Below, piece by piece: positions 1 to 12,599 of a DNA stretch of 12,599 nucleotides. The DNA is from Rhizobiales bacterium UBA3584. Its GTDB lineage: Bacteria > Pseudomonadota > Alphaproteobacteria > Rhizobiales > Devosiaceae. The DNA lies in assembly GCA_002375765.1 (NCBI GenBank), contig DFMV01000015.1:1-12599 (forward strand), given 5' to 3'. A program made the translations under genes and the position numbers. The first letter of the stretch is position 1. The number at the start of each line of letters is the position of its first letter. Below the pieces are notes generated by a model. The model saw only the letters and a list, made by a program, of their open reading frames with translations. It had not been told where the DNA came from and ran no database searches.

Positions 1-17
1 CATTTTCGGGGAGTAGC

Positions 18-794
18 TCAGAGCGAGAAGACGCCAGCGATATCGAGCTGGAAATTCATGGCGTAGATGAGATATCCGATCCCCGCCGACGCGCCCACAA
101 ACTCGCCGACGATCACCCCGAGCACCGCCAGCGTCCAGCACAGCTTGACCCCGGCCATCATGATCGGCAGTGCGTTGGGCAGCAGCAGGTAGCGAAAGGT
201 TTTCCAGCGGCCCGCCGTCAGCGACTTCATCAGCCGCACAGCATTGGGATCGACCGAGGCCAGCCCGGTCAGCGTGTTGAGAAACATCGGAAAAAAGCTC
301 ATCACCGCCGCAATGGCGATCTTTGAGGCCTGATCGAACCCGAACCATGTGATGAAGATCGGCGCCAGAACGATCTTGGGCGGGGCCTGCAGCGCCACCA
401 GGTAGGGATAGATGGTGGCCCGAACGAAGGGGAACATGGCAACCCCGACTCCGAACAGCACGCCACTGCTCAATCCCCAGAAAAACCCCCAGGCAATTTC
501 GGAAAGCGTGACCAGCACGTTCGGCCAGAAATAGCCCGCGCTCATTACCCGCCCGGTCGCCCAGAACGTATCGACTGGCGAGGGAATGATCAGCGCATGC
601 ACGATCCCGGCTTCCGTGACGAACGCCCAGAGAGCGAGGACAAAGAGCCCGAAGCCCGCCGCCATCAGCCTGTTGTTGAGCACGGTGCGCCGAGCCTTGG
701 CCCGTTCGCGTGCCACGAAGGCTTCGGTCGCGCTTGCATCGTCTGCATGTATCGGTGTCTGCTCAGTGATCATGGCTTGCCCGGCAGATGTCAT
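18..794 (-). CDS. ABC transporter permease, SsuC/TauC/NitT type, C-terminus apparently short
   Basis: Inner-membrane permease of an importer for a small organic anion such as a sulfonate, taurine or nitrate; the substrate cannot be told because no binding protein is in the window. The protein (258 aa) has a soluble N-terminus of about 45 residues, then several hydrophobic helices. Near residues 190-217 lies the cytoplasmic EAA-type loop (LMKSLTAGRWKTFRYLLLP) that docks on the ATPase. I chose the ATG at 794 because GGAAAGGAGAG sits just before it; a TTG ten codons upstream overlaps the ATPase stop codon and is less likely. The gene follows the ATPase by 26 bases and is surely co-transcribed. 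Oddity: translation stops at ...DIAGVFSL, where family members usually continue for 35-45 residues with a last helix. Truncation or a frameshift is likely. An ATG at 3-1 could begin another gene, but its ribosome site is poor. Confidence 0.85.
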   Translation of the reverse strand: MTSAGQAMITEQTPIHADDASATEAFVARERAKARRTVLNNRLMAAGFGLFVLALWAFVTEAGIVHALIIPSPVDTFWATGRVMSAGYFWPNVLVTLSEIAWGFFWGLSSGVLFGVGVAMFPFVRATIYPYLVALQAPPKIVLAPIFITWFGFDQASKIAIAAVMSFFPMFLNTLTGLASVDPNAVRLMKSLTAGRWKTFRYLLLPNALPIMMAGVKLCWTLAVLGVIVGEFVGASAGIGYLIYAMNFQLDIAGVFSL

Positions 795-820
795 CGTCTC
801 TCTCCTTTCCGTGCTGAGGC

Positions 821-1585
821 TCAATGATCCACACCGAGCATGCGGCGGATCTCGAAAACATGGTCGGAATAGCGCTGGTCGCGCATCATCTCGGTCCTCC
901 GCGGTCGCGGCAGGTCCACCTCGACGACGCCCTCGAGTCGCCCCGGTCGCGGTGTCATGACGAAAATCCGGTCCGACAGAAACACCGCCTCGCCGATGTT
1001 GTGGGTGACGAAAATCACGGTCTTACCGGTCTTCTCCCAGACCTTGAGCAGTTCGAGATTCATCGTCTCTCGGGTAAATTCGTCCAGCGCGCCGAACGGC
1101 TCGTCCATCAGCAACACACGCGGATCGTGCGCCAGCAGCCGGGCCAGCGCTACGCGCTGCCGCATGCCGCCAGAAAGCTCCTTGGGATAGCGTTCCCCGA
1201 ACCCGTTCAATCCCACAAGGTCCAGCAGTTCGTCGCACCGCTCGGCCTGCTGTTTCCGATCCAGATTGAGGATAACGCCGGGCAGTTCCACGTTCTGGCG
1301 CACTGTCCGCCATGGAAACAGCACCGAGGTCTGAAACATCATGCCGATATCGGCCCGGGGCTGATCGAGCCGCTGTCCCGCCAGGATCAGGTCGCCGTCA
1401 GAACGCTCCTCGAGCCCTCCCAGAATGGAAAGCAACGTCGATTTCCCGCACCCGCTCGGGCCGACCAGCGAAATGAACTCACCTTCCTCGATGGAAAAGG
1501 AAACCCCGTCGAGCGCAATCAGCGGCCCCGTCGCCGTTGCATAGATCTTGGTCAGATCCGTCCCCGCGATCAGTCCATCCATCAT
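821..1585 (-). CDS. ABC transporter ATP-binding protein, SsuB/TauB/NrtD type
   Basis: Cytoplasmic ATPase that powers the importer whose permease lies directly downstream. All ATPase motifs are intact in the 254-residue protein: Walker A GPSGCGKST at residues 42-50, Q-loop glutamine near 85, signature LSGGM at 137-141, Walker B LLMDEP at 158-163, and the switch histidine near 195 (VTHN). The sequence around the Q-loop and signature (FPWRTV, ERYPKELSGGMRQR) is typical of the nitrate/sulfonate/taurine subfamily (COG1116). The start is taken at the ATG-ATG at 1585 because GAGGTG lies 7-8 bases upstream; a longer reading frame to 1633 would run through a palindromic operator candidate and has no such site. 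Substrate is unknown. Sulfonates, nitrate, taurine, pyrimidine precursors or other small organics are all possible. Confidence 0.93.
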   Translation of the reverse strand: MMDGLIAGTDLTKIYATATGPLIALDGVSFSIEEGEFISLVGPSGCGKSTLLSILGGLEERSDGDLILAGQRLDQPRADIGMMFQTSVLFPWRTVRQNVELPGVILNLDRKQQAERCDELLDLVGLNGFGERYPKELSGGMRQRVALARLLAHDPRVLLMDEPFGALDEFTRETMNLELLKVWEKTGKTVIFVTHNIGEAVFLSDRIFVMTPRPGRLEGVVEVDLPRPRRTEMMRDQRYSDHVFEIRRMLGVDH

Positions 1586-1603
1586 GCTTTTCACCTCAAT
1601 CAG

Positions 1604-1627
1604 TTTGCATGCAAAATTGGATGCAAT
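1604..1627. promoter_or_regulatory. Two tandem 12-bp palindromes, operator candidate for the importer
   Basis: The perfect palindrome TTTGCATGCAAA (1604-1615) abuts ATTGGATGCAAT (1616-1627), which is one change from a perfect palindrome. Both fit the pattern WTTGNATGCAAW and repeat with a 12-bp period. They end 18 bases upstream of the importer ATPase start codon. Tandem palindromes this close to a start suggest a repressor site, for example for a GntR-family protein. The regulator is not in the window, so the family is inference. Confidence 0.45.
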
Positions 1628-1771
1628 CATCATGCCAAAGCAGAGCCTGTTGATTTTATTGAATGTTTTTCGGGGAGAACTTCTGGCGCAATGCGATCTG
1701 CGCCGAAAATGCGCAGCCTGCGCCCATAATTTAGGCGCTTTGTTTCCCGCTTCCGAAAGCCTGAACCGCTC

Positions 1772-1786
1772 GTTCAGTCCCTGTTC
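1772..1786 (+). promoter_or_regulatory. Alphaproteobacterial SOS box (LexA site), GTTC-N7-GTTC
   Basis: GTTC at 1772-1775, seven bases, then GTTC at 1783-1786. This is an exact match to the direct-repeat LexA site known in Alphaproteobacteria. A further GAAC at 1763-1766 makes an inverted repeat CTGAAC-N5-GTTCAG with the first half. It lies 114 bases before the small peptide gene and 186 bases before the leftward importer genes; the first is the more likely target. The other perfect match found in an intergenic region is before uvrB, a classical SOS gene. I see no clear -35/-10 pair here, so the link to a promoter is inferred. Confidence 0.6.
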
Positions 1787-1900
1787 AGCCGGAAAATGGC
1801 CTTATCGCCTCACCGCACACGAAGCCGTCATCGGATGAAACCAAATCCGGTTCTGCCCCGTTTAATGCGGTACAGAGGCATAAAACACTGGAGGCTGAAA

Positions 1901-2002
1901 ATGGCCCGCACCCTTATTCAGATGAGCATCGGAACCGCCGCCGGCGCCGTCATGGTCACCATGATGGTTACGGTTATGGCCTTCACCGGCGCCTTCGCCT
2001 GA
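1901..2002 (+). CDS. Small single-helix membrane peptide, possibly SOS-controlled
   Basis: A 33-residue peptide of unknown function, not recognised as a named family. It has a short polar start (MARTLIQ) followed by one hydrophobic stretch from about residue 8 to the end, rich in methionine (6 of 33), with small residues spaced as in helix-helix contacts (GTAAGA, TGA). It should sit as one helix in the inner membrane; a cleavable signal would leave nothing behind. The ribosome site GGAGG at 1890-1894 is strong and lies six bases before the ATG, and a clear terminator begins 36 bases after the stop, so the gene forms its own unit. The SOS-box match upstream gives a layout like LexA-controlled Caulobacter SidA (division inhibitor, 29 aa) or E. 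coli TisB (membrane toxin, 29 aa). That is likeness of layout only. Confidence 0.6.
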   Translation: MARTLIQMSIGTAAGAVMVTMMVTVMAFTGAFA

Positions 2003-2037
2003 CCGGCAAGTCATTCATTTCAATCCCATGCACCAAG

Positions 2038-2070
2038 GCCCTTGCCGACCCTCCCCGGCGAGGGCTTTTT
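2038..2070 (+). terminator. Rho-independent terminator after the small peptide gene
   Basis: GCCCTTGCCG (2038-2047) pairs with CGGCGAGGGC (2056-2065) over ten positions with one G-U pair, around an eight-base loop. Five T residues follow at once (2066-2070). Its position 36 bases after the small gene's stop supports that gene as a real transcription unit. Confidence 0.85.
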
Positions 2071-2153
2071 CGTGGTCGGGCCTCCGCACTGCACGTCTCT
2101 GTCGGCATTCCCGAACCGGTCGGGCAAATTGTCCCCTGAAGGCAGGGAACATC

Positions 2154-2183
2154 TTGCAACATGTTACAAATCGTCCTTGAATA
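2154..2183 (+). promoter_or_regulatory. Promoter and operator candidate for the ABC exporter
   Basis: The 16-base dyad TTGCAACATGTTACAA (2154-2169) is a palindrome apart from one pair. Its first six bases, TTGCAA, can act as a -35 box, and 17 bases later TTGAAT (2177-2182) can act as a -10 box; each matches four of six consensus bases. A regulator bound to the dyad would cover the -35 box and spacer. The start of transcription would be about 75 bases before the exporter gene. No regulator gene is adjacent. Confidence 0.35.
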
Positions 2184-2185
2184 CA

Positions 2186-2248
2186 CGGGCGAGTGATTTG
2201 CCCGATTTTCTTCAAGACCGATTCCCGCGTCTCCTTCGGGCGTTTTTT
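2186..2248 (+). promoter_or_regulatory. Leader with competing hairpins before the exporter, attenuator candidate
   Basis: CGGGC (2186-2190) can pair with GCCCG (2200-2204). The same GCCCGA (2200-2205) can instead pair with TCGGGC (2236-2241), which is followed by G and six T residues (2243-2248). The two folds exclude each other and the second looks like a terminator, although its loop of 30 bases is long. A short frame ATG 2161 to TGA 2194-2196 (MLQIVLEYTGE) ends inside the first hairpin; its nearest ribosome site (AGGGA, 2144-2148) is rather far. The stems are short, so this is tentative. Confidence 0.25.
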
Positions 2249-2265
2249 GATGTCTGGATACTGAA

Positions 2266-4122
2266 GTGACCACCCTCACGGCTGGCCGGGAGCGTTCGCG
2301 TGGCGACGCCAGGGCCCATGTTGCCGCCGCCCATTCGGGCAAAGATCGCAGCCCCCTGTTGCGGATTGCCCTTCTATCCCTCCGTCACCACTGGCAGGTG
2401 GCCATCGCCGTGGTTGCGACCATCGTCGCCGCCCTGCTCCAGCTTGCCATTCCACGGCTGCTTGGACAGGCCATCGATCAGGCCCAGAACATTCTTTCCG
2501 TCACCGGAGCAGAGGCCGAACAGGCCCTTTGGGTCAGCGCCATCACCCTGCTCGTCGTCTCCATCCTGCGCGGGCTGTTCACCCTGCTCCAGAACTATTT
2601 CGCGGAATCGGTGGGCCACCACGTTGGCTACGAACTGCGGCTGGCCTTTTACGACAAGGTCCAGCGCCTGCCTTACGCCTATCACGACAAGGTTCATTCG
2701 GGCGATCTCATCACCATCGGCCTGCTCGATCTCGACGGCATCCGCATGTTCTTTTCGACCGGCCTGATCCGCGTCGTCCTGCTCACCATCCTGATCGGCG
2801 TCGGCGCCTGGATGCTGATTTCGACCGATATCGTGCTCGGCCTTCTGGCGCTCAGCTTCGTGCCCTTCGTCGCCTGGCGCTCCTCGGTCGCCCAGTTGAC
2901 CCTGCGCAAGACCTGGCTGACCCTGCAGGAAAAGCTCTCGGTTCTCACCCGCATCATGGAAGAAAACCTCGGCGGCATCCGCGTCGTTCGCGCGTTTTCC
3001 GGCCAGAAGCACGAACTCAAAAAGTTCGACACCGCCTCCGACGATGCTCTCGGCCTTGCCCACCAGCGCACCAACATCCGGGTGAAAAACACCTCGATGA
3101 TGACCTTTTCCTTTTTCGCCGCCATGGGGCTGGTGCTCTGGGTGGGCGGCAACAAGGTCATCGCCGGCGAAATCAGCGTCGGCACCCTGGCGAGCTTTCT
3201 CACCTTCATGACCATCCTGCAGATGCCCGTGCGCCAGCTCGGCCTGATGGTCAATTCCTTTGCCCGCGCCTCGACCTGCGGCAATCGCTTCTTTGCCTTC
3301 ATCGATGCCCCCGTCGCGATCAGGGACAAACCCGGCGCCACCGATCTCACCGTCACCGACGGCACGCTCAGCTTTGACCATGTCGGCTTTACATATGACG
3401 GCGCCGCCCATCCGACCCTCAAGGACGTCAGCTTTGTCGCCCGCAAGGGCCAGACCATCGGCATCGTCGGCGCCCCCGGCAGCGGCAAATCCACGCTCGC
3501 GCACCTGATCGCCCGCTTCTATGACGTGTCCGAAGGCAGCATAAAGATCGATGGCCAGGACGTCCGCGACGTGACGCTGAAATCCCTGCGCACCAGCGTC
3601 GCCGTGGTGCAGCAGGATACGTTCCTGTTCACCACCACGATCGAAAACAACATCGCCTACGGCAACCCCTGGGCCAAGGAAACCCGCATCGAAAAGGCTG
3701 CCGAAAGCGCCCAGCTCCACAATTACATCATGGGCCTGCCCGCCGATTACGACACGGTCGTCGGCGAACGCGGCGTCTCGCTCTCGGGCGGCCAGCGCCA
3801 GCGCCTTTCCATCGCCCGCAGCTTGGTCCTCAAGCCCGCCGTGATGGTGTTCGACGATTCCACCGCCGCCATCGATGCCGGCACCGAACACCGCATTCGC
3901 TCGGCCATCCGCCGCTTTGCCAAGGACCGCATCACCATCATCATAGCCCACCGCCTCTCCTCGCTCATGGACGCCGATACCATCTTCTTCCTCGAGGACG
4001 GCGCCATCGCCGAACGCGGCACCCATGACGAACTGCTCGCCCTGGGCGGCCGCTACCGCGCCCTCTACGACCTCCAGACCCGGCCCACCGAAGACATCGA
4101 ACAACAAGAGGCCGGACAATGA
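2266..4122 (+). CDS. Heterodimeric ABC exporter, subunit with degenerate ATP site
   Basis: Fused membrane-ATPase half-transporter of the multidrug/lipid exporter type (COG1132), 618 aa. An N-terminal tail of about 40 residues precedes six expected helices (to about residue 330), then the ATPase domain: Walker A GAPGSGKS at 402-409, signature LSGGQ at 506-510, Walker B VMVFD ending at D530, switch histidine H562. The residue after the Walker B aspartate is D531 (FDDSTAAID), where the catalytic glutamate normally stands. This marks the weak-hydrolysis partner of a heterodimer, as in TM287/288 and BmrCD. The start is GTG 2266, the first usable start after an in-frame stop at 2248-2250; its ribosome site is weak. 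Its stop overlaps the next gene's start by four bases (ATGA), so the two are translationally coupled. Substrate cannot be read from sequence; drugs or lipids are typical. Confidence 0.93.
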   Translation: MTTLTAGRERSRGDARAHVAAAHSGKDRSPLLRIALLSLRHHWQVAIAVVATIVAALLQLAIPRLLGQAIDQAQNILSVTGAEAEQALWVSAITLLVVSILRGLFTLLQNYFAESVGHHVGYELRLAFYDKVQRLPYAYHDKVHSGDLITIGLLDLDGIRMFFSTGLIRVVLLTILIGVGAWMLISTDIVLGLLALSFVPFVAWRSSVAQLTLRKTWLTLQEKLSVLTRIMEENLGGIRVVRAFSGQKHELKKFDTASDDALGLAHQRTNIRVKNTSMMTFSFFAAMGLVLWVGGNKVIAGEISVGTLASFLTFMTILQMPVRQLGLMVNSFARASTCGNRFFAFIDAPVAIRDKPGATDLTVTDGTLSFDHVGFTYDGAAHPTLKDVSFVARKGQTIGIVGAPGSGKSTLAHLIARFYDVSEGSIKIDGQDVRDVTLKSLRTSVAVVQQDTFLFTTTIENNIAYGNPWAKETRIEKAAESAQLHNYIMGLPADYDTVVGERGVSLSGGQRQRLSIARSLVLKPAVMVFDDSTAAIDAGTEHRIRSAIRRFAKDRITIIIAHRLSSLMDADTIFFLEDGAIAERGTHDELLALGGRYRALYDLQTRPTEDIEQQEAGQ

Positions 4123-6020
4123 CCGCGACCGATCTCGACGACGAACACGACGCCGCCACCTTCCCCGGCCAGCGCCCGCCGCGCGCTACCGTGGGCAGCG
4201 CCCATATCGAGGAGGAAGTGTTCGGCAAGGCCTATGACCCGCGCACCATCCGGCGCATCTGGGCCTTCGTTCACCCCTATCGCCACCGCATCTATCTCTC
4301 GGTCGGCGCCGTGCTTTTGTTCACCGCCACCCAGCTCGCCATCCCGCTCATCATTGGTTTTGCCATCGACTCGGGCATGACCGAAGGCGGCGACACCACG
4401 AACCTGCTCTGGGCCATCCTCGCCTTCGCCGCAGTAATTTCCCTCAACTTTGCCGCCTCCTGGGTGCAGGAAAAACAGGTCGGCAACGTCGCCGAAAACG
4501 TGCTGTTCGACATGCGCCGCGCCATGTTCGCGCGCCTGCAGATCGTTGCGCTGAGCTTCATGGACAAGACCGAAGTCGGGCGCCTGATGAGCCGGCTGCA
4601 GGGCGACGTCAATTCCATGCAGGAATTCCTCGAAACCTCGATCGTCTCCATCGGCGATCTGGTCCTGCTGTGCGGCATTGTCGTTGTGCTTTTGAGCCTC
4701 GATTGGGGTCTGGGGCTTCTGACCCTTGCCACCATGCCCGCCCTGTTCATCGTCCGCATCTTCTGGCTGCCGCCGGCCAAACGCGCCTTCTGGGCTGCCC
4801 ATGAGACCAACTCGGCCACCAATGGCGCCATGGCCGAAGGCATTAACGGGGTGCGCACCATCCAGAATCTCGACCGCCAGAAGGTCAATTTCGACCTCTA
4901 TGACGACAAGGCCTGGTCGAACCTGAAAACCCAATTGACCGGCTCGCGCTACGCCCAGGTCATGGTGCCCATCGTCGACAGCTTGACCGGCATCGCCATG
5001 GCCACGGTCATCGTGGTCGGCGGTTCGCTGGTCCTCAACGGCTCCATGCAGGTCGGCATCATCGTAGCCTTCCTGTTCTACATCCAGCGCTTCTTCGATC
5101 CCATCCGCTCGCTGACCATGCAATATTCCATCATGCAGCGCGCCATGACCTCGGGCCGCCGCATCACCGAAGTGCTCGACGTCCCCGTCTCCATCGCCGA
5201 CAAGCCCGACGCGACAACCCTCACCCGCGACATGGACGGCTCGGTCGATTTCGACAACGTCGTCTTCGGCTACGATCCCAAACGCCCGGTCCTCAAACAC
5301 GTCTCCTTCCACGTCAATCCCGGTGAAACCGTCGCCCTTGTCGGCCCCACCGGCTCGGGCAAGACCAGCGCCATGGCCCTCGTCCATCGCTTTTACGAAG
5401 TCCAGTCCGGCGCCGTCCGCGTCGGCGGCCATGACGTGCGCGACGTGACCCAGGAAAGCCTGGGCGAACAGGTCGCCATGGTGCTCCAGGAACCGTTCCT
5501 GTTCACCGGCACGGTGTTTGAAAACATCCGCTACAACAAGGCCTCCGCCACAATCGATGACGTCATCGCGGCTTCAAAGGCCGTCGGCGCCCACGAGTTC
5601 ATCACCCGCCTGCCCGATGGCTACGATACTGTCCTCGAACAGCGCGGCTCCAACTTCTCGCTCGGCCAGCGCCAATTGCTCAGCTTCGCCCGCGCCCTTG
5701 TCGCCGACGCAAAGATCCTCGTCCTCGACGAGGCCACCGCCAATATCGACAGCTACACAGAACGTCAGATTCAAAAGGCGCTGGAAACCCTGCTCGAAGG
5801 CCGCACCGGCCTCGTCATCGCCCACCGCCTCGCCACCATCCGCGGCGCCGACCGCATCATCGTGCTGCAGAACGGCGAGTTGATCGAACAGGGCAACCAC
5901 GATCAGCTCATGGCCAAAAACGGCCTCTACGCCCGCCTCTACACCATGAACTACTCAAGCTTCGACGACATCCCCGACGACATCGTCAACGCCGCCACGG
6001 CGGGCGACGGAACGACGTGA
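4119..6020 (+). CDS. Heterodimeric ABC exporter, subunit with canonical Walker B
   Basis: Second half of the exporter, 633 aa, with the same plan: a soluble N-terminus of about 55 residues, a six-helix membrane domain, then the ATPase. Walker A GPTGSGKT lies at 409-416, and Walker B LVLDEAT has D537 and the catalytic glutamate E538; the switch histidine is H569. The signature, however, is FSLGQ at 513-517 instead of LSGGQ. In a head-to-tail dimer this altered signature faces the Walker motifs of the first subunit, which has Asp for Glu. Both faults therefore fall in one ATP site and the other site is fully canonical. That complementary pattern is strong evidence that the two proteins work together as a TM287/288-like heterodimer. 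The gene follows by ATGA overlap, and an 18-base gap then separates it from the convergent HNH gene. Confidence 0.94.
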   Translation: MTATDLDDEHDAATFPGQRPPRATVGSAHIEEEVFGKAYDPRTIRRIWAFVHPYRHRIYLSVGAVLLFTATQLAIPLIIGFAIDSGMTEGGDTTNLLWAILAFAAVISLNFAASWVQEKQVGNVAENVLFDMRRAMFARLQIVALSFMDKTEVGRLMSRLQGDVNSMQEFLETSIVSIGDLVLLCGIVVVLLSLDWGLGLLTLATMPALFIVRIFWLPPAKRAFWAAHETNSATNGAMAEGINGVRTIQNLDRQKVNFDLYDDKAWSNLKTQLTGSRYAQVMVPIVDSLTGIAMATVIVVGGSLVLNGSMQVGIIVAFLFYIQRFFDPIRSLTMQYSIMQRAMTSGRRITEVLDVPVSIADKPDATTLTRDMDGSVDFDNVVFGYDPKRPVLKHVSFHVNPGETVALVGPTGSGKTSAMALVHRFYEVQSGAVRVGGHDVRDVTQESLGEQVAMVLQEPFLFTGTVFENIRYNKASATIDDVIAASKAVGAHEFITRLPDGYDTVLEQRGSNFSLGQRQLLSFARALVADAKILVLDEATANIDSYTERQIQKALETLLEGRTGLVIAHRLATIRGADRIIVLQNGELIEQGNHDQLMAKNGLYARLYTMNYSSFDDIPDDIVNAATAGDGTT

Positions 6021-6036
6021 GGGCGGGCCTCAAGTC

Positions 6037-6059
6037 CTTCAATGCTTGAAGACATTTTC
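6037..6059 (+). terminator. Weak hairpin at the convergent gene ends
   Basis: CTTCAA (6037-6042) and TTGAAG (6046-6051) form a six-base stem with a three-base loop, followed by CATTTTCT. It starts 17 bases after the exporter stop and overlaps the last codons of the convergent HNH gene. The stem is short and poor in GC, so it may be only a weak terminator. Confidence 0.3.
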
Positions 6060-6941
6060 TCGATGCCACGACAGGAATGCAGGGTGCGGTCGATCCCGCA
6101 GTTCGGCCGGTCCAATCAGCCGCCCGGACTTGTTAATCAGGCTTTCCAGTCCCTGACGGTCATTGACCTGACGCGAAATAACGATCTCCAGATCATCCGC
6201 CAGCGCAATGAGTCCCCGATCGAACATCCAATGGACTGTGCCCGAAAGCGGTAGGCCATTGTTTATTATGTCGGGTCCGTTGGCCTCAACCGGCCGAATA
6301 TGCGCGGCCTCCACTTCGGCCCGCCCCCCGCCATTGATGAGCTTGAGGCCCGTAATTCCACAACGCGAGTCGTATGCGTTCAGGACAACTCGCCGAAACA
6401 CTCTGTCACGCAGAATGCGGGACGTAAGCACACGCACCCGCTCTCTTTCGACTTCAAACGGCGCTTGCTCTTCCGCCAAACCAGGCGGAACAGAGGCAAT
6501 TGCATCACTTCGCGGAAGCAGATCGTCCTGCCCAACGAGGCCCAGATCGATGATCCGGTTGAAATCTGCAGGCGCAAGCGATCGCACTGCCGCTTGCGCC
6601 CTGCCCGATATCCGCCCGACGGCGTTGAGAAGGCCAGCCTCGACCACCTCATTGTCAAGAACGAACGGAACTGGGCGCGCAAAGGGCAGATAGCTTCCTG
6701 GCTCGATCAAAGCCAAAAACATGTCGGACCGTGTTGGATCGAGGGTAACGTCGGCAACCTTTGCCACGGCAAAATAGCCGCGTGAATTTTTCACTTTGGT
6801 TGGCTCGTAATAAACGATCCAGTCTCCAACACAGGATTTCACGCGGGAATAATACTGATGTGGAAACTGGTATTGCGTGGCAGGGCTGTCGTCATAGATC
6901 GAGTCTGCGCGATGAATAAAAACGCCAAAACCCAAATTCAC
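6039..6941 (-). CDS. HNH endonuclease with PUA/EVE-like N-terminal domain
   Basis: Predicted DNA nuclease, about 300 aa. Residues 1-95 (GVFIHRADSIYDD, CVGDWIVYYEP, RGYFAVAKV, ALIEPGSYL) look like a small beta-rich PUA/EVE-type domain, a fold that reads modified bases in several restriction enzymes; this assignment is from memory of the pattern. The C-terminus is a clear HNH_2-type domain: C194 in YDSRCGITGL, H214 in EAAHIRP, the asparagine in NNGLPL near 228, and H237 in VHWMFDRG. The combination suggests a modification-dependent (type IV-like) nuclease, but no methylase or partner is adjacent. The GTG at 6941 is nearly touching its GGGGAG site; the TTG at 6935 has better spacing and may be the true start. 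GC is low in the 5' part (I count 25/60 in 6781-6840 and 30/60 in 6841-6900), unlike the neighbours, which suggests transfer. It may share a transcript with the HD-GYP gene 56 bases upstream. Confidence 0.85.
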   Translation of the reverse strand: MNLGFGVFIHRADSIYDDSPATQYQFPHQYYSRVKSCVGDWIVYYEPTKVKNSRGYFAVAKVADVTLDPTRSDMFLALIEPGSYLPFARPVPFVLDNEVVEAGLLNAVGRISGRAQAAVRSLAPADFNRIIDLGLVGQDDLLPRSDAIASVPPGLAEEQAPFEVERERVRVLTSRILRDRVFRRVVLNAYDSRCGITGLKLINGGGRAEVEAAHIRPVEANGPDIINNGLPLSGTVHWMFDRGLIALADDLEIVISRQVNDRQGLESLINKSGRLIGPAELRDRPHPAFLSWHRENVFKH

Positions 6942-6997
6942 TCTCCCCTATCGCATCATTCGACAATGTCCCACCATCACCTGGCTGTCCACCCAGC

Positions 6998-8344
6998 CTA
7001 AGCCACCGCCTGCTCCGACCGCGCCAGCGCCCGCTCCAGCGCTTCGATGCATGCCGGGTCATGCGATGCTCCCGCCCCTTCCCACAATATCCCCATCGCC
7101 TTGGAAACCGGCATCGCCGCGCGATAGGGCCGGTCCGCCGTCAGCGCGTCGAATACGTCCGCGGTCGAAATGATCCGCGTGTCGAGGTCGAGTTCGTCGG
7201 CCGTCTTGCCGTTGGGATAGCCCTTGCCGTCCAGCCGCTCGTGATGCGCGCCCGCCACCACGGCAAGATCGGAAAACGCGCCGATGCGCGATAAAATGTC
7301 TTCGGACAGCCGGGCGTGGTCGCGCATGGCAACCCATTCGTCATCATTGAGCTTGCCGGGCTTGTCGAGCACGCTGTTGGATACGCCCAGCTTGCCGATA
7401 TCGTGCAGCAGCGCGGCGCGTTTGAGCCAGCGCCGCCGCGCCCGTGTGTATCCCATCTCCTCGGCGATCAGGTCGGAAAACACCGCCACCCGTTCGCTGT
7501 GGCCGGAGGTGAACGGGCTCTTGGCGTCGATCACCCGCGCAAAAGCCTGCGCGATATCGTCGAGATACCCCTCATCGGCCCGCTGAACCTCCTGCCCCGG
7601 TTCGAGGTCGAGCACCACCTGCTCGATGTCTTCTCGCCCCAGCATTGCCCAGAACGTCTCGTCGGCGGCCACGTCGCAAAAGGCGAAAACCACCGCTGGG
7701 TCGAACCACGTCCCCGAGCGCGAGGTGATTTCGGTCATCGCGGCCTCCGGCCCCCCGGACATGAAGAACACGTCCACCACCTGCGCCAGAAGCGCGATAC
7801 GCGAAAACAGCGAAATATCCGCGCCGGCCTTGCCAACCGGCTTGCCAGCGCCATTCCACTGCTCATCGAGATCAAGGATGGCCTGCGCCACATTTTCGGA
7901 AAACCGCATCTGGCGGGCAATCTCCGCCCCGCGCTGGCACCGCGTTTCGATCAGATCGGTGACGATCTCACCGCCATTGCGCATGATGTTGACCACCGAG
8001 CGGAACCGCTCGGCCAGCCCCGCCTCGGCCCCGGTGTGCGACAGGACGAACCGCAGCACCTGCGGCAGGCTGCCGTCGAGATGCTTGAAGTCGCGCTTGA
8101 AGGTCAGATCGTCGGCCAGATATAATTCACAGATACGCGCCGCATTGGACGAACACCCCAGATCCTTGAGCAGCAGCGCATAATAGAGATCGCGCAGCGC
8201 CGCCTCGTCCATGCCCATGGACCGGCCCACCTGCACCCCGATCCAGCAACAGCGCATGCAGTGACCGGGCGGTTGCCCCTCGGTCATGTCGAGCGCCCGG
8301 CTCAGTGCCCCCAACACCTCGGCCAACCGTATAGATCCACTCAT
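6998..8344 (-). CDS. Tandem HD / HD-GYP protein, probable cyclic-di-GMP phosphodiesterase
   Basis: Cytoplasmic protein of 448 aa. The C-terminal half is a complete HD-GYP domain: H282 (SGHSER), H314-D315 with K318 (LLHDIGKLG), H343, HHER at 367-370, and DGKGYP at 372-377, followed by ADVFDALTADRPYR. All metal ligands are present, so cyclic-di-GMP hydrolysis is likely. The N-terminal half repeats the same plan in degenerate form: GHCMR at 27-31, LLLKDLG where HD should be (K60-D61), and DEQWNGAGKP at 160-169 in place of HERxDGxGYP. It has lost its key histidines and is probably a sensor or dimer domain. No membrane segments or receiver domain are seen. The ATG at 8344 was chosen because the 44 residues upstream in frame run through a strong hairpin and look non-coding. 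A similar double-HD layout occurs in some LuxR-fused proteins, but no HTH is present here. Confidence 0.9.
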   Translation of the reverse strand: MSGSIRLAEVLGALSRALDMTEGQPPGHCMRCCWIGVQVGRSMGMDEAALRDLYYALLLKDLGCSSNAARICELYLADDLTFKRDFKHLDGSLPQVLRFVLSHTGAEAGLAERFRSVVNIMRNGGEIVTDLIETRCQRGAEIARQMRFSENVAQAILDLDEQWNGAGKPVGKAGADISLFSRIALLAQVVDVFFMSGGPEAAMTEITSRSGTWFDPAVVFAFCDVAADETFWAMLGREDIEQVVLDLEPGQEVQRADEGYLDDIAQAFARVIDAKSPFTSGHSERVAVFSDLIAEEMGYTRARRRWLKRAALLHDIGKLGVSNSVLDKPGKLNDDEWVAMRDHARLSEDILSRIGAFSDLAVVAGAHHERLDGKGYPNGKTADELDLDTRIISTADVFDALTADRPYRAAMPVSKAMGILWEGAGASHDPACIEALERALARSEQAVA

Positions 8345-8351
8345 TTCGCGC

Positions 8352-8382
8352 CCTACCCATCGGGAATTTTCCCGATGGTAGG
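8352..8382 (-). promoter_or_regulatory. Leader hairpin enclosing the ribosome site of the HD-GYP gene
   Basis: CATCGGGAA (8358-8366) and TTCCCGATG (8369-8377) form a perfect nine-base inverted repeat with a two-base centre. The match extends outward with CCTACC (8352-8357) and GTAGG (8378-8382), leaving one extra base. In the leftward transcript the 3' arm ends in GGGTAGG, the only ribosome-site-like sequence, seven bases before the ATG. When folded, the hairpin would hide it. As DNA the same dyad could instead be a repressor site. Confidence 0.55.
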
Positions 8383-8518
8383 CCACAGGACCCAAAGCTG
8401 GGTTAACGCGGGCCGAACCAGGTCTCCAGCGCGTCAGCACCGGAAGCTCACACGCCCGGTCAAAATCGGCCCTCACCGCCCGCTCCCGATCCGCCGGTGA
8501 CCCGGCAGAAAATCCCCC

Positions 8519-9340
8519 TCACCCGAGCGCCCCGAACACCGCGCGGATTCGCGCCGTATGCCTTAGCGCCTCCGGCGCCAGCAGCCAGATGTCGACCGAG
8601 AAGGCGATTTCATCGACGATGCGCGTCAGGCCGCCATACCCATCCGCTACAGTGCTGGGAAGCAGACCGGTTCCCATGCCCGCCGCCACGGCGCGCAGCA
8701 TGATCAAAGGTGTCGATACGCTCATCACCGGCTGCACATCGGGCAAGGTCTGTTTCAGCCAACGTCCAGCCGGCCCGCCGCACTCGCGGCCACTGTAGTC
8801 GATCCACGCCATGGTGCCGACCTCGCCTTGCGCCGCCCCGTTGCGGCAGTAGGGATAGAAATCGAACCGGCCCACCTTGCGCCCGAACAAAAACTCGTCC
8901 GGCCGGTTGGTCAGCCTCAGCGCCATTTCGGCCTCGCGCCGGGATAGGCTGCGCAGTTCGGTCCCCGTTTCAATGGTAAGCTCGATTCCGGGATAGGCCG
9001 CCCGAAACGCAGCGATCCTGTCCATGTAGTGCCAGGCGAGAATATCGACCGTCGTCAGCCGCACCGCTCCGGTCAGCCGCTGGTCCTCACCCTTGATGCC
9101 GCTTTCGAGTTCCGCCATCTCCACTGCGATCCGCCCGGCACTTTCTAGCACCCGTTCCCCCGCCGCCGTCGGCACCATCTGCCCGGCGCGCGTATCGAAC
9201 AGCCGCGTCTGGTAATAGGCTTCGAGCTGCCGCAGCCGCCGCGCCACCGTCGTGTGCGCCATGCCCAACATGCGTGCCGCCGCCGAAAAGCTGCCGCCCG
9301 CGGCCACGGCCTTCACCAACACAAAATCGGAAGTGTTCAC
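8519..9340 (-). CDS. LysR-family transcriptional regulator
   Basis: DNA-binding regulator of 273 aa. The winged helix-turn-helix spans about residues 1-60, with GSFSAAARMLGMAHTTVARRLRQLE at 16-40 in pieces typical of the family, then a linker helix and a substrate-binding effector domain from about residue 87. The GTG at 9340 is chosen as start: AGGGA lies seven bases upstream, and the resulting N-terminus (MNTSDFVLVKAV) begins right at the first helix, as usual. The longer frame from 9400 would run through the operator region. The gene is divergent from the MAPEG gene, with 107 bases between starts, the usual arrangement of a LysR protein and its target. It probably controls that gene and itself. 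The inducer is unknown. Confidence 0.93.
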   Translation of the reverse strand: MNTSDFVLVKAVAAGGSFSAAARMLGMAHTTVARRLRQLEAYYQTRLFDTRAGQMVPTAAGERVLESAGRIAVEMAELESGIKGEDQRLTGAVRLTTVDILAWHYMDRIAAFRAAYPGIELTIETGTELRSLSRREAEMALRLTNRPDEFLFGRKVGRFDFYPYCRNGAAQGEVGTMAWIDYSGRECGGPAGRWLKQTLPDVQPVMSVSTPLIMLRAVAAGMGTGLLPSTVADGYGGLTRIVDEIAFSVDIWLLAPEALRHTARIRAVFGALG

Positions 9341-9351
9341 ATTTGCATCCC

Positions 9352-9388
9352 TGTGCAATTTCGCACAATTGAGTTCAACAATTGCGCG
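9352..9388. promoter_or_regulatory. LysR operator candidate with two dyads
   Basis: TGTGC (9352-9356) and GCACA (9363-9367) form a dyad with a six-base centre. It partly overlaps a larger one, CGCACAATTG (9362-9371) and CAATTGCGCG (9379-9388), ten-base arms with a single mismatch around a seven-base centre. Both lie between the divergent starts, close to the LysR ribosome site. LysR proteins commonly bind two adjacent sites in such a gap, one for self-repression and one for activation. Confidence 0.5.
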
Positions 9389-9417
9389 TTGACTGTACAC
9401 GAACGAACAGCAATCTT
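9389..9417 (+). promoter_or_regulatory. Promoter candidate for the MAPEG gene
   Basis: TTGACT (9389-9394) is a good -35 box. Seventeen bases later AATCTT (9412-9417) stands where a -10 box is expected, but it is a poor match. The -35 box abuts the large dyad, as expected for a promoter activated by a LysR protein. Confidence 0.3.
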
Positions 9418-9447
9418 CCAGCTTTCCTTCACCAGCCGGACCCCGAC

Positions 9448-9846
9448 ATGCTCCTTCCCTTCGCCATTCTCACTGCTGGCGCGCTTGTGTTTTTCTCGGC
9501 CGCCATCCAGCATCTCAATACGGTCACCGCCAATGGCATCGCCTTCGCTTTTACCGACCGCAGCACGCCGCTTTCGCGTGAAGGCTTTGCCGGACGCGCT
9601 GCGCGGACGCTCCAGAACAATCTTGAATCCGCTGCCATGTTCGTCCCGCCAGCCATTCTGCTGTTCAGCAATGGCTCCGAACCCCCGCTCGCCACAACGG
9701 CCGCCGGCGCCTACATCGCCACCCGCATCTCCTTCACGCTCGCTTACTGGACCGGTCGCAACCGCCTGCGCTCTTTCTTCTGGGGTTTGGGCATGGCCTC
9801 GATTGCAGTAACCGCTGCCCTCTCGGCGCAATCCATACTGACATGA
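9448..9846 (+). CDS. MAPEG family membrane protein
   Basis: Small integral membrane protein of 132 aa, the usual MAPEG length, with four expected helices (about residues 3-22, 60-76, 82-100 and 108-126). MAPEG proteins include glutathione transferases and eicosanoid-forming enzymes in animals; most bacterial members have no known reaction. The family signature is visible after helix 1: GRAARTLQNNLE at 49-60, with the conserved Arg, Asn and Glu, and YWTGRNRLRSFFW at 100-112. The ATG at 9448 is preferred over an in-frame start at 9382, which would add a polar tail and overlap the promoter; the ribosome site (CCGGA) is weak. It is divergent from the LysR gene and is its likely target. Thiol-linked detoxification is possible, but this is inference. 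Confidence 0.85.
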   Translation: MLLPFAILTAGALVFFSAAIQHLNTVTANGIAFAFTDRSTPLSREGFAGRAARTLQNNLESAAMFVPPAILLFSNGSEPPLATTAAGAYIATRISFTLAYWTGRNRLRSFFWGLGMASIAVTAALSAQSILT

Positions 9847-10035
9847 GCATCAGCAAGGTCTGCTCACAGTCCATTCCATTGGCGGCATAAGCGGCGGTCA
9901 AAAGAGCGCCGACACCGCCTCCCATTACCACACCGTCCGCACCGCCCGACAATGCTCGCAAGAGCCAATTGCACCGGACACGGAAATCGATATGGTTATG
10001 GCGCATATCATTTAGCCGGATGACAGGGAGGCCCG

Positions 10036-11625
10036 ATGACGCAGCTTGAAGACGTTTTGCTCACCCTTGCGGCCTTCCCCCAACCCGGATGGGAGGAGTC
10101 CGAAACGGCCCAGGTGCTCGAACCCTTCAGCCAGTTCGTGAGCGAGGTGATCGCTCCGGCGGCGGGCGAATGCGACAGGGAAGGCGCCCGTTTCACCGAC
10201 GGCCGCGTTCATCTTCCATCTTCGATGGTCGCGGCCTATCGCTCCTACGTCGATCTTGGCTGGAACCAGCTTCACCTGTCCCAAGCCGCTGGCGGCTTTG
10301 GCGCACCCGACGCCGTTTCCCTCATGGCCACCCAATTGCTGGCGGCGGCCAACGCTTCCTTCCAGATGCTCACCGGATTGGTGCGCGGCGGCGCCGATGC
10401 GCTGGTTCACCTCGCCCCCGAGCTTGCCCCCCGCTATCTGCCCCTGCTGACCGATGGCTCGGCCCTTGTCACCATGGCTCTCACCGAGCCCGGCGCCGGA
10501 ACCGATCTGGGCGCCATCCGCACCCGCGCCGAAAAGCAACCGGACGGCACCTGGCGGATTTCGGGCGAAAAGATCTTCATCTCTGGCGGCGATCAGGACA
10601 TGAGCGAAACGATCCTGCATTTCGTCCTCGCGCGCACCCACGATACGCCGGGCACACGCGGCCTTTCCCTCTTCCTCTGCCCGGCCCGGCGCGACGACGG
10701 AACCGCTAACGCCCTAGCCGTCACCCGCATCGAGGAGAAGATGGGGCTCCACGCCTCTCCCACCTGCCAGATGCGGTTCGACGGTGCCGAGGCCTACCTG
10801 CTCGGCGAAGCCGGAAAGGGGCTGGCCGGCATGTTCATCATGATGAATCACGCCCGCCTCGATGTCGCCGCCCAGGGCGTGGCCGCGGCCTCCGCCGCCC
10901 ATGAAAAGGCCCTCGCCTACGCCCGCACCCGAATGCAGGGCCGCACCGCCTCGGGCGCTCCGGCCAGCCTGCTCGACCTCCCCGATATCCGCCGCATGCT
11001 GTTGACCATGGACAGTCTCGCCCTTGGCGGTCGCGCCATGGTGGCCCACACCGCCGGCCTGCTCACGTCAAATCCGCGCCTCGCGACCTTCCTCACACCA
11101 ATCGTCAAGACCTTCTGCACCGATATGGGCTCCCGCGCCGCCGATCTGGGCATTCAGGTGCTCGGCGGCTACGGCTACCTTGCCGAATACGACATTGAGC
11201 GCATCTGGCGCGACAGCCGCGTCGCCCGCCTCTATGAAGGCGCCAATGGCGCCCTCGCCGCAGCCTTCGTCAAACGCGAATTGGCCGACCCGCCGGCGCG
11301 CGCCGCCTTCGTCGACGCCATCGCCACGCTGGCTCGGGAGACGCCATTCGAAGCCGGAATCGGAACCGGCCTTGCCCAATGGGCCGATTGCGCCCAGGCA
11401 CTGGCCGCCCATCCCCGCGCCCCGCAGGCGGCCGAGCCCGTGGCTCATTTCACCGGCCTGCTCCACCACGCCGCAGCCCTGGCGCACCTTGCCGCCCGTC
11501 ACCCCGACCACCCCCGCCTTGCCGCTCCGGCCCGCTTCGCCCTCCGATCGCTCTCCGCCGAGATCGACCACGCCGCCGCCCGCCTGCGGCAAATGCTCGA
11601 AGAGGATCTGCCCGCGCTGTCGTGA
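10036..11625 (+). CDS. Acyl-CoA dehydrogenase
   Basis: Soluble FAD enzyme of 529 aa that introduces a double bond between C2 and C3 of an acyl-CoA. Visible marks are the flavin/substrate motif MALTEPGAGTDLG at 147-159, GEKIFISGGDQDMSE following it, EEKMGLHASPTCQM, and near the end of the core QVLGGYGYLAEYDIERIWRDSR. There the YEG motif places the expected catalytic base at E401 (YEGANG). The long form with an extra C-terminal helical domain resembles the roughly 590-residue subfamily that includes DmdC (methylmercaptopropionyl-CoA dehydrogenase) and rhizobial AcdA-like proteins. Here the N-terminus is shorter and divergent. The substrate cannot be named. GGGAGG five bases before the ATG fixes the start. 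It stands alone, with no thiolase, ligase or hydratase beside it, and is followed by the uvrB control region. Confidence 0.92.
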   Translation: MTQLEDVLLTLAAFPQPGWEESETAQVLEPFSQFVSEVIAPAAGECDREGARFTDGRVHLPSSMVAAYRSYVDLGWNQLHLSQAAGGFGAPDAVSLMATQLLAAANASFQMLTGLVRGGADALVHLAPELAPRYLPLLTDGSALVTMALTEPGAGTDLGAIRTRAEKQPDGTWRISGEKIFISGGDQDMSETILHFVLARTHDTPGTRGLSLFLCPARRDDGTANALAVTRIEEKMGLHASPTCQMRFDGAEAYLLGEAGKGLAGMFIMMNHARLDVAAQGVAAASAAHEKALAYARTRMQGRTASGAPASLLDLPDIRRMLLTMDSLALGGRAMVAHTAGLLTSNPRLATFLTPIVKTFCTDMGSRAADLGIQVLGGYGYLAEYDIERIWRDSRVARLYEGANGALAAAFVKRELADPPARAAFVDAIATLARETPFEAGIGTGLAQWADCAQALAAHPRAPQAAEPVAHFTGLLHHAAALAHLAARHPDHPRLAAPARFALRSLSAEIDHAAARLRQMLEEDLPALS

Positions 11626-11667
11626 ACCGAAAACACGTCCTCCTGACACATCCTGTCAGCAGGAACC

Positions 11668-11682
11668 GTTCACACTCCGTTC
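11668..11682 (+). promoter_or_regulatory. SOS box (LexA site) of uvrB, GTTC-N7-GTTC
   Basis: GTTC at 11668-11671, seven bases, then GTTC at 11679-11682: an exact match to the alphaproteobacterial LexA site. It lies 105 bases before the uvrB start, in the gap after the acyl-CoA dehydrogenase gene. uvrB is an SOS gene in many bacteria, which supports the call. Confidence 0.75.
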
Positions 11683-11698
11683 CGTTGGTGCTAAGAGT

Positions 11699-11737
11699 GC
11701 AGTCAGAAAAAGTTGCAGACTTTTTCGGTTCGACTGC
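11699..11737. repeat. Long inverted repeat in the uvrB leader
   Basis: GAAAAAGT (11706-11713) and ACTTTTTC (11719-11726) are perfect arms around a five-base loop. Outside them GCAGTC (11699-11704) pairs with GACTGC (11732-11737), with one base on the left and five on the right unpaired. The element lies between the SOS box and the uvrB start. It could terminate read-through from the dehydrogenase gene, shape the uvrB leader, or be a dispersed palindromic repeat; a single copy cannot decide. Confidence 0.55.
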
Positions 11738-11787
11738 GCGACCCCAATCTATTGATTCAGTCCACCTGCGGCCCGATATGGTGCTCC

Positions 11788-12599
11788 ATGACCTCCGATA
11801 AAAAATCCCCGTCCGCCGGTCGCCCCGGTAAAGCCGACTTTTCCATCGACGATTTCATCAAGGAAATCGAAAAGGCCGAGGACGCTCAGGCCTCAAAGCC
11901 GCTTTACGCCGAGCGCATGCGCAACAAGCGCGCGCTGGACCGCGCGGACCAAAAAGCAGCCGCCGAAGCCCAGGAAACCGAGCGCCTCGCCGGCAAGGGC
12001 AAGGACAACGCGAAAGCCAACGCCCGCAAGGCCAGTGCCGCCAAGGGCAAACGCAGTGAAGCCACGGGCATGTCGCTCAAGGCCCCAAAATCCAAGGCCA
12101 ACTCCGTCGAGCGCCCCACCAATCTCGATGGCTTCGCCGAAGCCCCGCAGGCCGGTTTCCACGCGCCCACCGATGTGACCAATTCCTCGGCCGGCGTTTC
12201 GGCCACCGTCGCCGCGCTCGAAAAGATCATCGCCGAGGGCCGCAAGGAGGTCGAGGGCACCAATGCCTGGCGGCCCCACCGCCCGGCTGCGCTCAAAAAG
12301 GACAAGGGCGGCATCCCCTTCCGCCTGCAGACCGATTACGTCCCCGCCGGCGACCAGCCCACCGCGATCGCCGAACTCATCGACGGCATCACCAATGGCG
12401 AGACCGATCAGGTCCTGCTCGGCGTCACCGGCTCGGGCAAGACGTTTACCGCCGCCCAGGTGATCGCCCAGACCGGACGCCCGGCCCTCATCCTCGCGCC
12501 CAACAAGACCCTGGCCGCCCAGCTCTATGGCGAGTTCAAGAACTTCTTCCCCGACAACGCGGTCGAATACTTCGTTTCCTATTACGACTACTACCAGCC
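11788..12599 (+). CDS. uvrB: Excinuclease ABC subunit UvrB, 3' end outside the window
   Basis: Helicase-like damage-verification subunit of nucleotide excision repair, acting with UvrA and UvrC. The frame is open to the window end (270 complete codons). The conserved core begins near residue 177 ([15 protein letters not shown]) and continues with Walker A GVTGSGKT at 212-219, [15 protein letters not shown], and the start of the beta-hairpin at FVSYYDYYQ, all nearly identical to E. coli UvrB. E. coli UvrB has only about four residues before this core; here about 175 precede it, rich in Lys, Ala and charged residues and probably unstructured. Similar extensions occur in Hyphomicrobiales. The ATG at 11788 has no clear ribosome site, so a later start (M44 or another) is possible. 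An SOS box lies 105 bases upstream. Confidence 0.97.

Follow-up and report, generated by a model that had tools for sequence, protein, structure and literature searches.

What controls a short gene for a membrane peptide that stands alone in the genome of Rhizobiales bacterium UBA3584, a member of the Devosiaceae? The gene lies in a stretch of 12,599 nucleotides, here called the window (contig DFMV01000015.1, positions 1 to 12,599). A sequence-only reading had taken the repeat upstream of the gene for a perfect alphaproteobacterial SOS box and had proposed a LexA-controlled peptide that, though recognizable as neither, may belong to the functional class of SidA of Caulobacter, a division inhibitor, and TisB, an SOS toxin of E. 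coli. The string in question, GTTC-N7-GTTC (GTTCAGTCCCTGTTC), is indeed present at 1772-1786 (+), within the larger candidate operator listed in Table 1. On its own it is weak evidence, because the window contains two such strings and this number is reached in 11 of 200 shuffles (mean 0.34). The second copy, at 11668-11682, is directly past a gene end. Elsewhere in the window, a translated stretch resembling SAVRKSC-LFRFD is found at 11690-11730, past an acyl-CoA dehydrogenase gene, and a similar one is found in L102, past a PhoB-like gene; its occurrence at both places suggests a dispersed intergenic palindrome (AAAAAGTTGCAGACTTTTT).

Table 1. Features of the peptide locus and of its paralogue. 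Positions are those of the window unless a genome and contig are given.
Feature	Position	Strand	Detail
FeuP-type operator (candidate)	1761..1789	+	CTGAAC at 1761-1766, then direct repeat GTTCAG-N5-GTTCAGC at 1772-1789; 11-base period
Possible -10 of a FeuP-activated promoter (tentative)	1800..1807	+	CCTTATCG, ~11 bases past the repeat
Likely EcfG/ECF15-type sigma-factor promoter	1837..1862	+	GAAAC-N17-CGTT; -35 GAAAC at 1837-1841, -10 CGTT at 1859-1862
Shine-Dalgarno sequence	1890..1894	+	GGAGG
Gene for 33-aa single-helix membrane peptide	1901..2002	+	ATG at 1901; stop codon ends at 2002
Intrinsic terminator	2035..2070	+	Fold energy and hairpin scan
Paralogous membrane peptide gene	G000:C87:63938-64033 (L156)		Also L155, L157-L164

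Operator, promoter(s), 33-codon gene and terminator together make the locus a self-contained unit of one gene. Much of the architecture described by the sequence-only reading holds: the gene does stand alone with its own box, the ribosome site is where it had been placed, and the terminator is clear. The fold of 2030-2075 has an energy of -26.2 kcal/mol (z -4.07), a value equalled by none of 200 shuffles, and a hairpin scan reports 2049-2064 within it. In relatives, a script rule recovers a hairpin and T-rich tail in 8 of 12, weakly in L011. The suggestion of a structured leader, as in tisB, did not fare as well; the fold of 1800-1905 has a z of -1.72 and is matched by 10 of 200 shuffles, so structure is not established there. 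A search of the window against Rfam gave no matches.

Judged by its conservation and codon pattern, the 33-codon gene is real. Its product is MARTLIQMSIGTAAGAVMVTMMVTVMAFTGAFA, 33 aa. The mechanically called open reading frame begins at an in-frame start at 1796 and would encode 68 aa; the shorter form is preferred because relatives keep its reading. Among 61 genomes searched, all 12 of the same genus, source included, encode the peptide, at 52-100% identity; other matches in that set were weak. When 136 genomes of the family were searched with a profile, 17 matched, of which 13 belong to the genus, a figure that counts genus genomes with a match and does not give their share of all genus genomes among the 136. 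The other four matches are weak, lie inside frames of more than 400 aa and were taken as chance. Where the records are named, all eight confirmed peptide loci come from Pelagibacterium (family Devosiaceae), and the peptide is best read as restricted to that genus. Over all comparisons of 10 relatives with the source copy, 67 codon differences are synonymous and 36 are not, and third positions account for 88 of the 134 base changes. Nearer relatives differ mostly by synonymous changes (9 vs 0, 7 vs 1, 8 vs 2), with the reverse in L011, the most distant counted (8 vs 13); L012, being one codon longer, is outside the count. The C-terminus reads G-A-[FL]-A in 12/12 genomes, and Q7, A13, M26, G30, A31 and A33 are invariant among the nine distinct sequences. 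Arg3 is the sole charged residue. The peptide has no Pfam match (E 0.01) and no match to an NCBIfam family, and it is not described in the literature searched, a search that rarely used the genus name as a query and covered few subscription papers.

What, then, is conserved upstream of the gene? In an oriented alignment of the 12 promoters, TTCAG-N6-TTCAGC is found in every one, with half-sites that are 100% identical, a spacer of 45% mean pairwise identity, and flanks of 57% and 41%. The base preceding the first TTCAG is G in six promoters and A in six, and that preceding the second is G in nine and A in three. Hence the full GTTC-N7-GTTC string is kept in only four of the 12 genomes, source included (L002, L004, L007 and L008). 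The upstream CTGAAC is exact in nine of the 12. The more general form TTCA-N7-TTCA, found before the peptide in all 12 genomes, is “Motif 3” of a transcription start-site map of Sinorhizobium meliloti; the cited portion of that paper places it 5' of 12 genes, five of them known to be FeuP-dependent, and proposes it as the FeuP site (PMC3616915). The operator of the peptide matches this candidate FeuP site.

Is there a regulator to go with such a site? DNA was fetched around each of the nine Trans_reg_C hits in genome G000, and TTCA-N7-TTCA lies near only one, a FeuP-like regulator (MRILVVEDDENLNRQL...). A 99-aa exported protein precedes it and a HAMP-HisKA-HATPase protein, checked in G000, follows it. 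This is the order expected for feuN-feuP-feuQ. The regulator is present in 12/12 genus genomes, each with [AG]TTCATTTG[CA]AGTTCAG 356-428 bases 5' of it (first base A in five). A TA-rich, -10-like sequence lies eleven bases past the repeat in the 10 feuN-like promoters inspected; the corresponding zone is just 46% identical, and thus poorly conserved, across the 12 peptide promoters. The best NCBIfam scores of the regulator are to PmrA, heavy-metal regulators, QseB and PhoP, all below cut-offs, and the nearest solved chain is BasR/PmrA. The name FeuP does not appear among the shortened names displayed for its 120 listed relatives. Neither Pfam nor NCBIfam gave a match for the 99-aa protein, and among the matches listed for it, three of 31 relatives are named PepSY proteins by their sources. 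The putative FeuP, FeuQ and FeuN identities are assigned from operon order, motif and family scores. In S. meliloti, the FeuP/FeuQ/FeuN system is associated with envelope and osmotic stress in the excerpts cited (PMC3616915, PMC12486126), and FeuN is described there as a periplasmic inhibitor of FeuQ (PMC12486126). CenR was also considered as the regulator of the repeat and rejected; its site, in the excerpt cited, is TGA-N8-TGA (PMC9275681).

The repeat has other apparent targets. RTTCAGN5RTTCAG occurs at 26 sites in six genomes, compared with three for the reversed control. By eye, six of the 26 sites precede the peptide, 16 precede exported-looking genes, two precede PadR regulators, and two, far from a start, are unassigned. 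The 16 exported-looking products comprise seven SH3-like proteins of two kinds, three IalB-like, three META-like, two SIMPL-like and one DUF2147-like. Pfam matches above cut-off were obtained for one protein each (SH3_3, IalB, YscW+META, SIMPL and PadR), the match of the one DUF2147-like protein run was below cut-off, and the second SH3 kind and the remaining regulon proteins were assigned by eye. With TTCAGN6TTCAGC, there are 46 matches in the 12 genomes vs 10 for the control. Some of the TTCAG repeats (L080, L083) are located within coding frames, probably by chance. The pattern extends beyond the genus: in a set of 10 further Devosiaceae genomes, each from a different genus, RTTCAN6RTTCAGC gave 49 matches vs six for the control, with none in one genome. 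Of these 49 sites, 25 have, within 330 bases downstream, a frame that shows a ribosome-site-like stretch and an N-terminus of exported or membrane type, and 24 have no such exported frame, both judged by eye. At L196, L199, L202, L204 and L212, a FeuP-type box lies 246-302 bases before similar exported proteins that look DsbA-like by eye. In another Devosiaceae genus, g6, a FeuP-type box stands ahead of a 27-aa peptide (L230, 291-374), and this 27-28-aa membrane peptide has relatives in 6/6 genomes (L233-L238), with the box in one of the six. The idea that peptides with FeuP-type boxes recur in other genera was dropped for that reason. Comparison of sequences gives good support to the predicted regulation of the 33-aa peptide by the FeuP-type repeat.

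There is a second footprint in the promoter. GAAAC-N17-CGTT is found in 12/12 peptide promoters, with both cores 100% identical and the spacer 41% identical, and the -10 CGTT lies 35-46 bases 5' of the ATG in 11 of them (93 in L006). The cited parts of two studies give GGAAC-N16-CGTT for the EcfG1 promoter of R. etli (PMC3892343) and GAAAC-N16-CGTT for the RpoE2-dependent promoter of S. meliloti SMc01509 (PMC6180224). The footprint resembles an EcfG general-stress promoter, and a stress sigma factor probably transcribes the gene as well; given the likeness to EcfG1 and RpoE2 promoters, it may belong to the general stress response too. A block at 1817-1830 (ACACGAAGCCGTCA in the source), immediately 5' of the EcfG-like -35, is similar in most relatives. 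A strict version of this block, ACGAAANCGTCA-N2to8-GAAACC, has five matches in the 12 genomes, every one at the peptide, and is absent from seven, including the source genome.

Could the EcfG-type promoter be the main control, with the repeat a modulator and the peptide chiefly a general-stress gene? Its constant presence argues for this, as does its distance from the ATG, better than that of the repeat, and the SMc01509 promoter shows the same -35 in an RpoE2-dependent setting. Against it, GAAAC is one base off the GGAAC of the consensus GGAAC-N16/17-CGTT, and a stricter pattern, TGAAACC-N16-CGTTNA, gave no sign of a wider regulon in the 12 genomes: there are 11 matches, eight at the peptide and three at one other shared-looking site. 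Since this alternative overlaps with the explanation that we prefer, the choice is a matter of weight, and a chief role for the sigma factor is possible but somewhat doubtful.

We consider it reasonably likely that the gene encodes a single-helix, genus-restricted membrane peptide under PhoP-like envelope-stress control, probably with the added input of a stress sigma factor, and that the peptide binds a membrane partner. The proposed sequence of events is as follows. First, a disturbance of the envelope or of osmolarity would cause the FeuQ-like kinase to signal, and the FeuP-like response regulator, of the PmrA/PhoP branch, would be phosphorylated. Second, the phosphorylated regulator would bind the repeat and activate transcription, and the EcfG-type sigma factor would also transcribe from GAAAC-N17-CGTT. 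Third, the peptide would insert in the inner membrane as one helix, with its N-terminus in and the GAFA of its C-terminus at the periplasmic face, an orientation predicted because the sole charged residue is near the N-terminus. Fourth, it may pack on a larger membrane protein of the envelope through its six invariant residues and tune that protein under stress. An envelope role is argued from the regulation. We infer the action on a partner from the single helix, the single N-terminal charge and the invariant residues, which together suggest helix packing. The most economical guess for the partner is a sensor kinase, as for MgrB on PhoQ.

A more elaborate version of this idea is that an MgrB-like feedback peptide evolved in Pelagibacterium under joint FeuP and general-stress control, that it binds a sensor, either the FeuQ-like kinase or a different one, and links the two systems, and that a 39-residue paralogue is a second copy under different control. 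The paralogue, a membrane peptide of ~39 aa (MSYKLTTQKLVSMSVAALTGATLCALFTVVLFVTGALAA; MSYKLTTQKLVSMSVAALTGA...VTGALAA), is found in 10 of 13 genus genomes at the profile threshold, and in nine of the 10 it shares a contig with the 33-aa gene, at a distance of ~0.2-8 kb. TTCA-N7-TTCA was found within 350 bases upstream of the paralogue in 0 of the 10. The presence of a FeuN-like protein makes a second inhibitor less needed, and we regard this version as unlikely.

Less likely again is a pore-forming peptide of the type I toxin kind, induced by envelope stress rather than by the SOS response. The product is short and hydrophobic with one helix, and its terminator is strong, as such a reading would have it. 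However, the peptide is kept throughout the 12 genomes of the genus, its leader is not clearly structured, and the window has no Rfam match.

We now return to the SOS response. Control of the peptide promoter by LexA is not supported by comparison of the promoters: this reading falls because orthologous promoters so seldom keep the GTTC-N7-GTTC form, a loss that the sequence-only reading had itself named as grounds for refutation. Each of the 12 genomes has two boxes in its lexA promoter, and all 24 are GTTC-N7-GTTC, whereas the first G is replaced by A in half of the peptide promoters and the second in a quarter. Moreover, the lexA boxes continue with [CT]G in 24/24 cases and never with AG, while the peptide repeat continues with AG in 12/12. 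A weight matrix built from feuN boxes outscores a LexA matrix on nine of 12 peptide boxes, although its spacer columns count too much because it was derived from orthologues. The LexA matrix is higher on the other three, L007 (2.6 for feuN vs 4.6), L008 (7.0 vs 9.8) and L012 (-2.0 vs 1.0). The recA genes are a point in favor of LexA: none has a perfect box within ~400 bases in any of the 12 genomes, and a wider scan of six genomes also found no perfect box and gave, in four, a near-box one base short, near -150. If used, this near-box would mean that LexA tolerates a change, and the argument, resting on lexA alone, would be weakened. The perfect string in the source genome and in L002, L007 and L008 also favors an SOS gene, as do the small size and single helix of the peptide, SidA being given as a 29-aa inner-membrane protein in the excerpt cited (PMC4211646). 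Set against this, a similar repeat precedes envelope genes. The peptide falls in no Pfam or NCBIfam family, and Pfam includes a TisB model. A LexA-repressed, SOS-induced inhibitor or toxin akin to SidA or TisB is very improbable. What survives of the proposed functional class is a small, regulated membrane peptide; the SOS control does not. The FeuP-type RTTCAG-N5-RTTCAG has the spacing of the SOS box and shares GTTC with it, which is why it can pass for a perfect one.

Least credible is the notion that the peptide frame is incidental and the element is a leader of the ABC transporter gene at 2266, for although that gene follows the peptide in the source genome and five others, it was not found beside the peptide in the other six of the 12 loci, where operator and peptide persist, and the terminator and a codon pattern that shows selection also speak against it. 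Neighbors were surveyed over ~3 kb at each of the 12 loci and over longer stretches in seven genomes (1.5 kb downstream for G001); an ABC ATPase gene (821 in the window) precedes the peptide in two loci. Since the unit keeps its operator without ABC neighbors, the peptide gene is most probably the one that the box serves.

What are the implications of these results? First, SOS members predicted from the GTTC-N7-GTTC string alone in such genomes need to be checked against orthologues. Second, the membrane peptide of this locus is strongly conserved and has two inputs that can be tested. Third, a candidate envelope regulon is outlined for a feuNPQ-like system in the Devosiaceae.

How does the locus compare with known systems? 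The peptide is like TisB in being short and hydrophobic, but it has no conserved LexA box and there is no evidence of a structured leader. It is like SidA in its size and its inner-membrane helix, and SidA acting on FtsW, as the cited part of that paper has it, offers another working model (PMC4211646); it differs from SidA in failing the conservation test for LexA control. MgrB of E. coli, 47 aa and a PhoP-regulon inhibitor of PhoQ in the excerpts cited (PMC2789325, PMC8404706), is likewise a membrane peptide belonging to a PhoP-branch regulon, although the peptide described here is shorter and matches no family model, and a FeuN-like protein may already act as the inhibitor. As far as the cited excerpts describe the FeuP/FeuQ/FeuN regulon of S. 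meliloti, the two systems share the TTCA-N7-TTCA operator and a small exported protein that comes first in the regulator operon with a box before it. The apparent targets set them apart: here they are SH3, IalB, META and SIMPL proteins, together with the 33-aa peptide.
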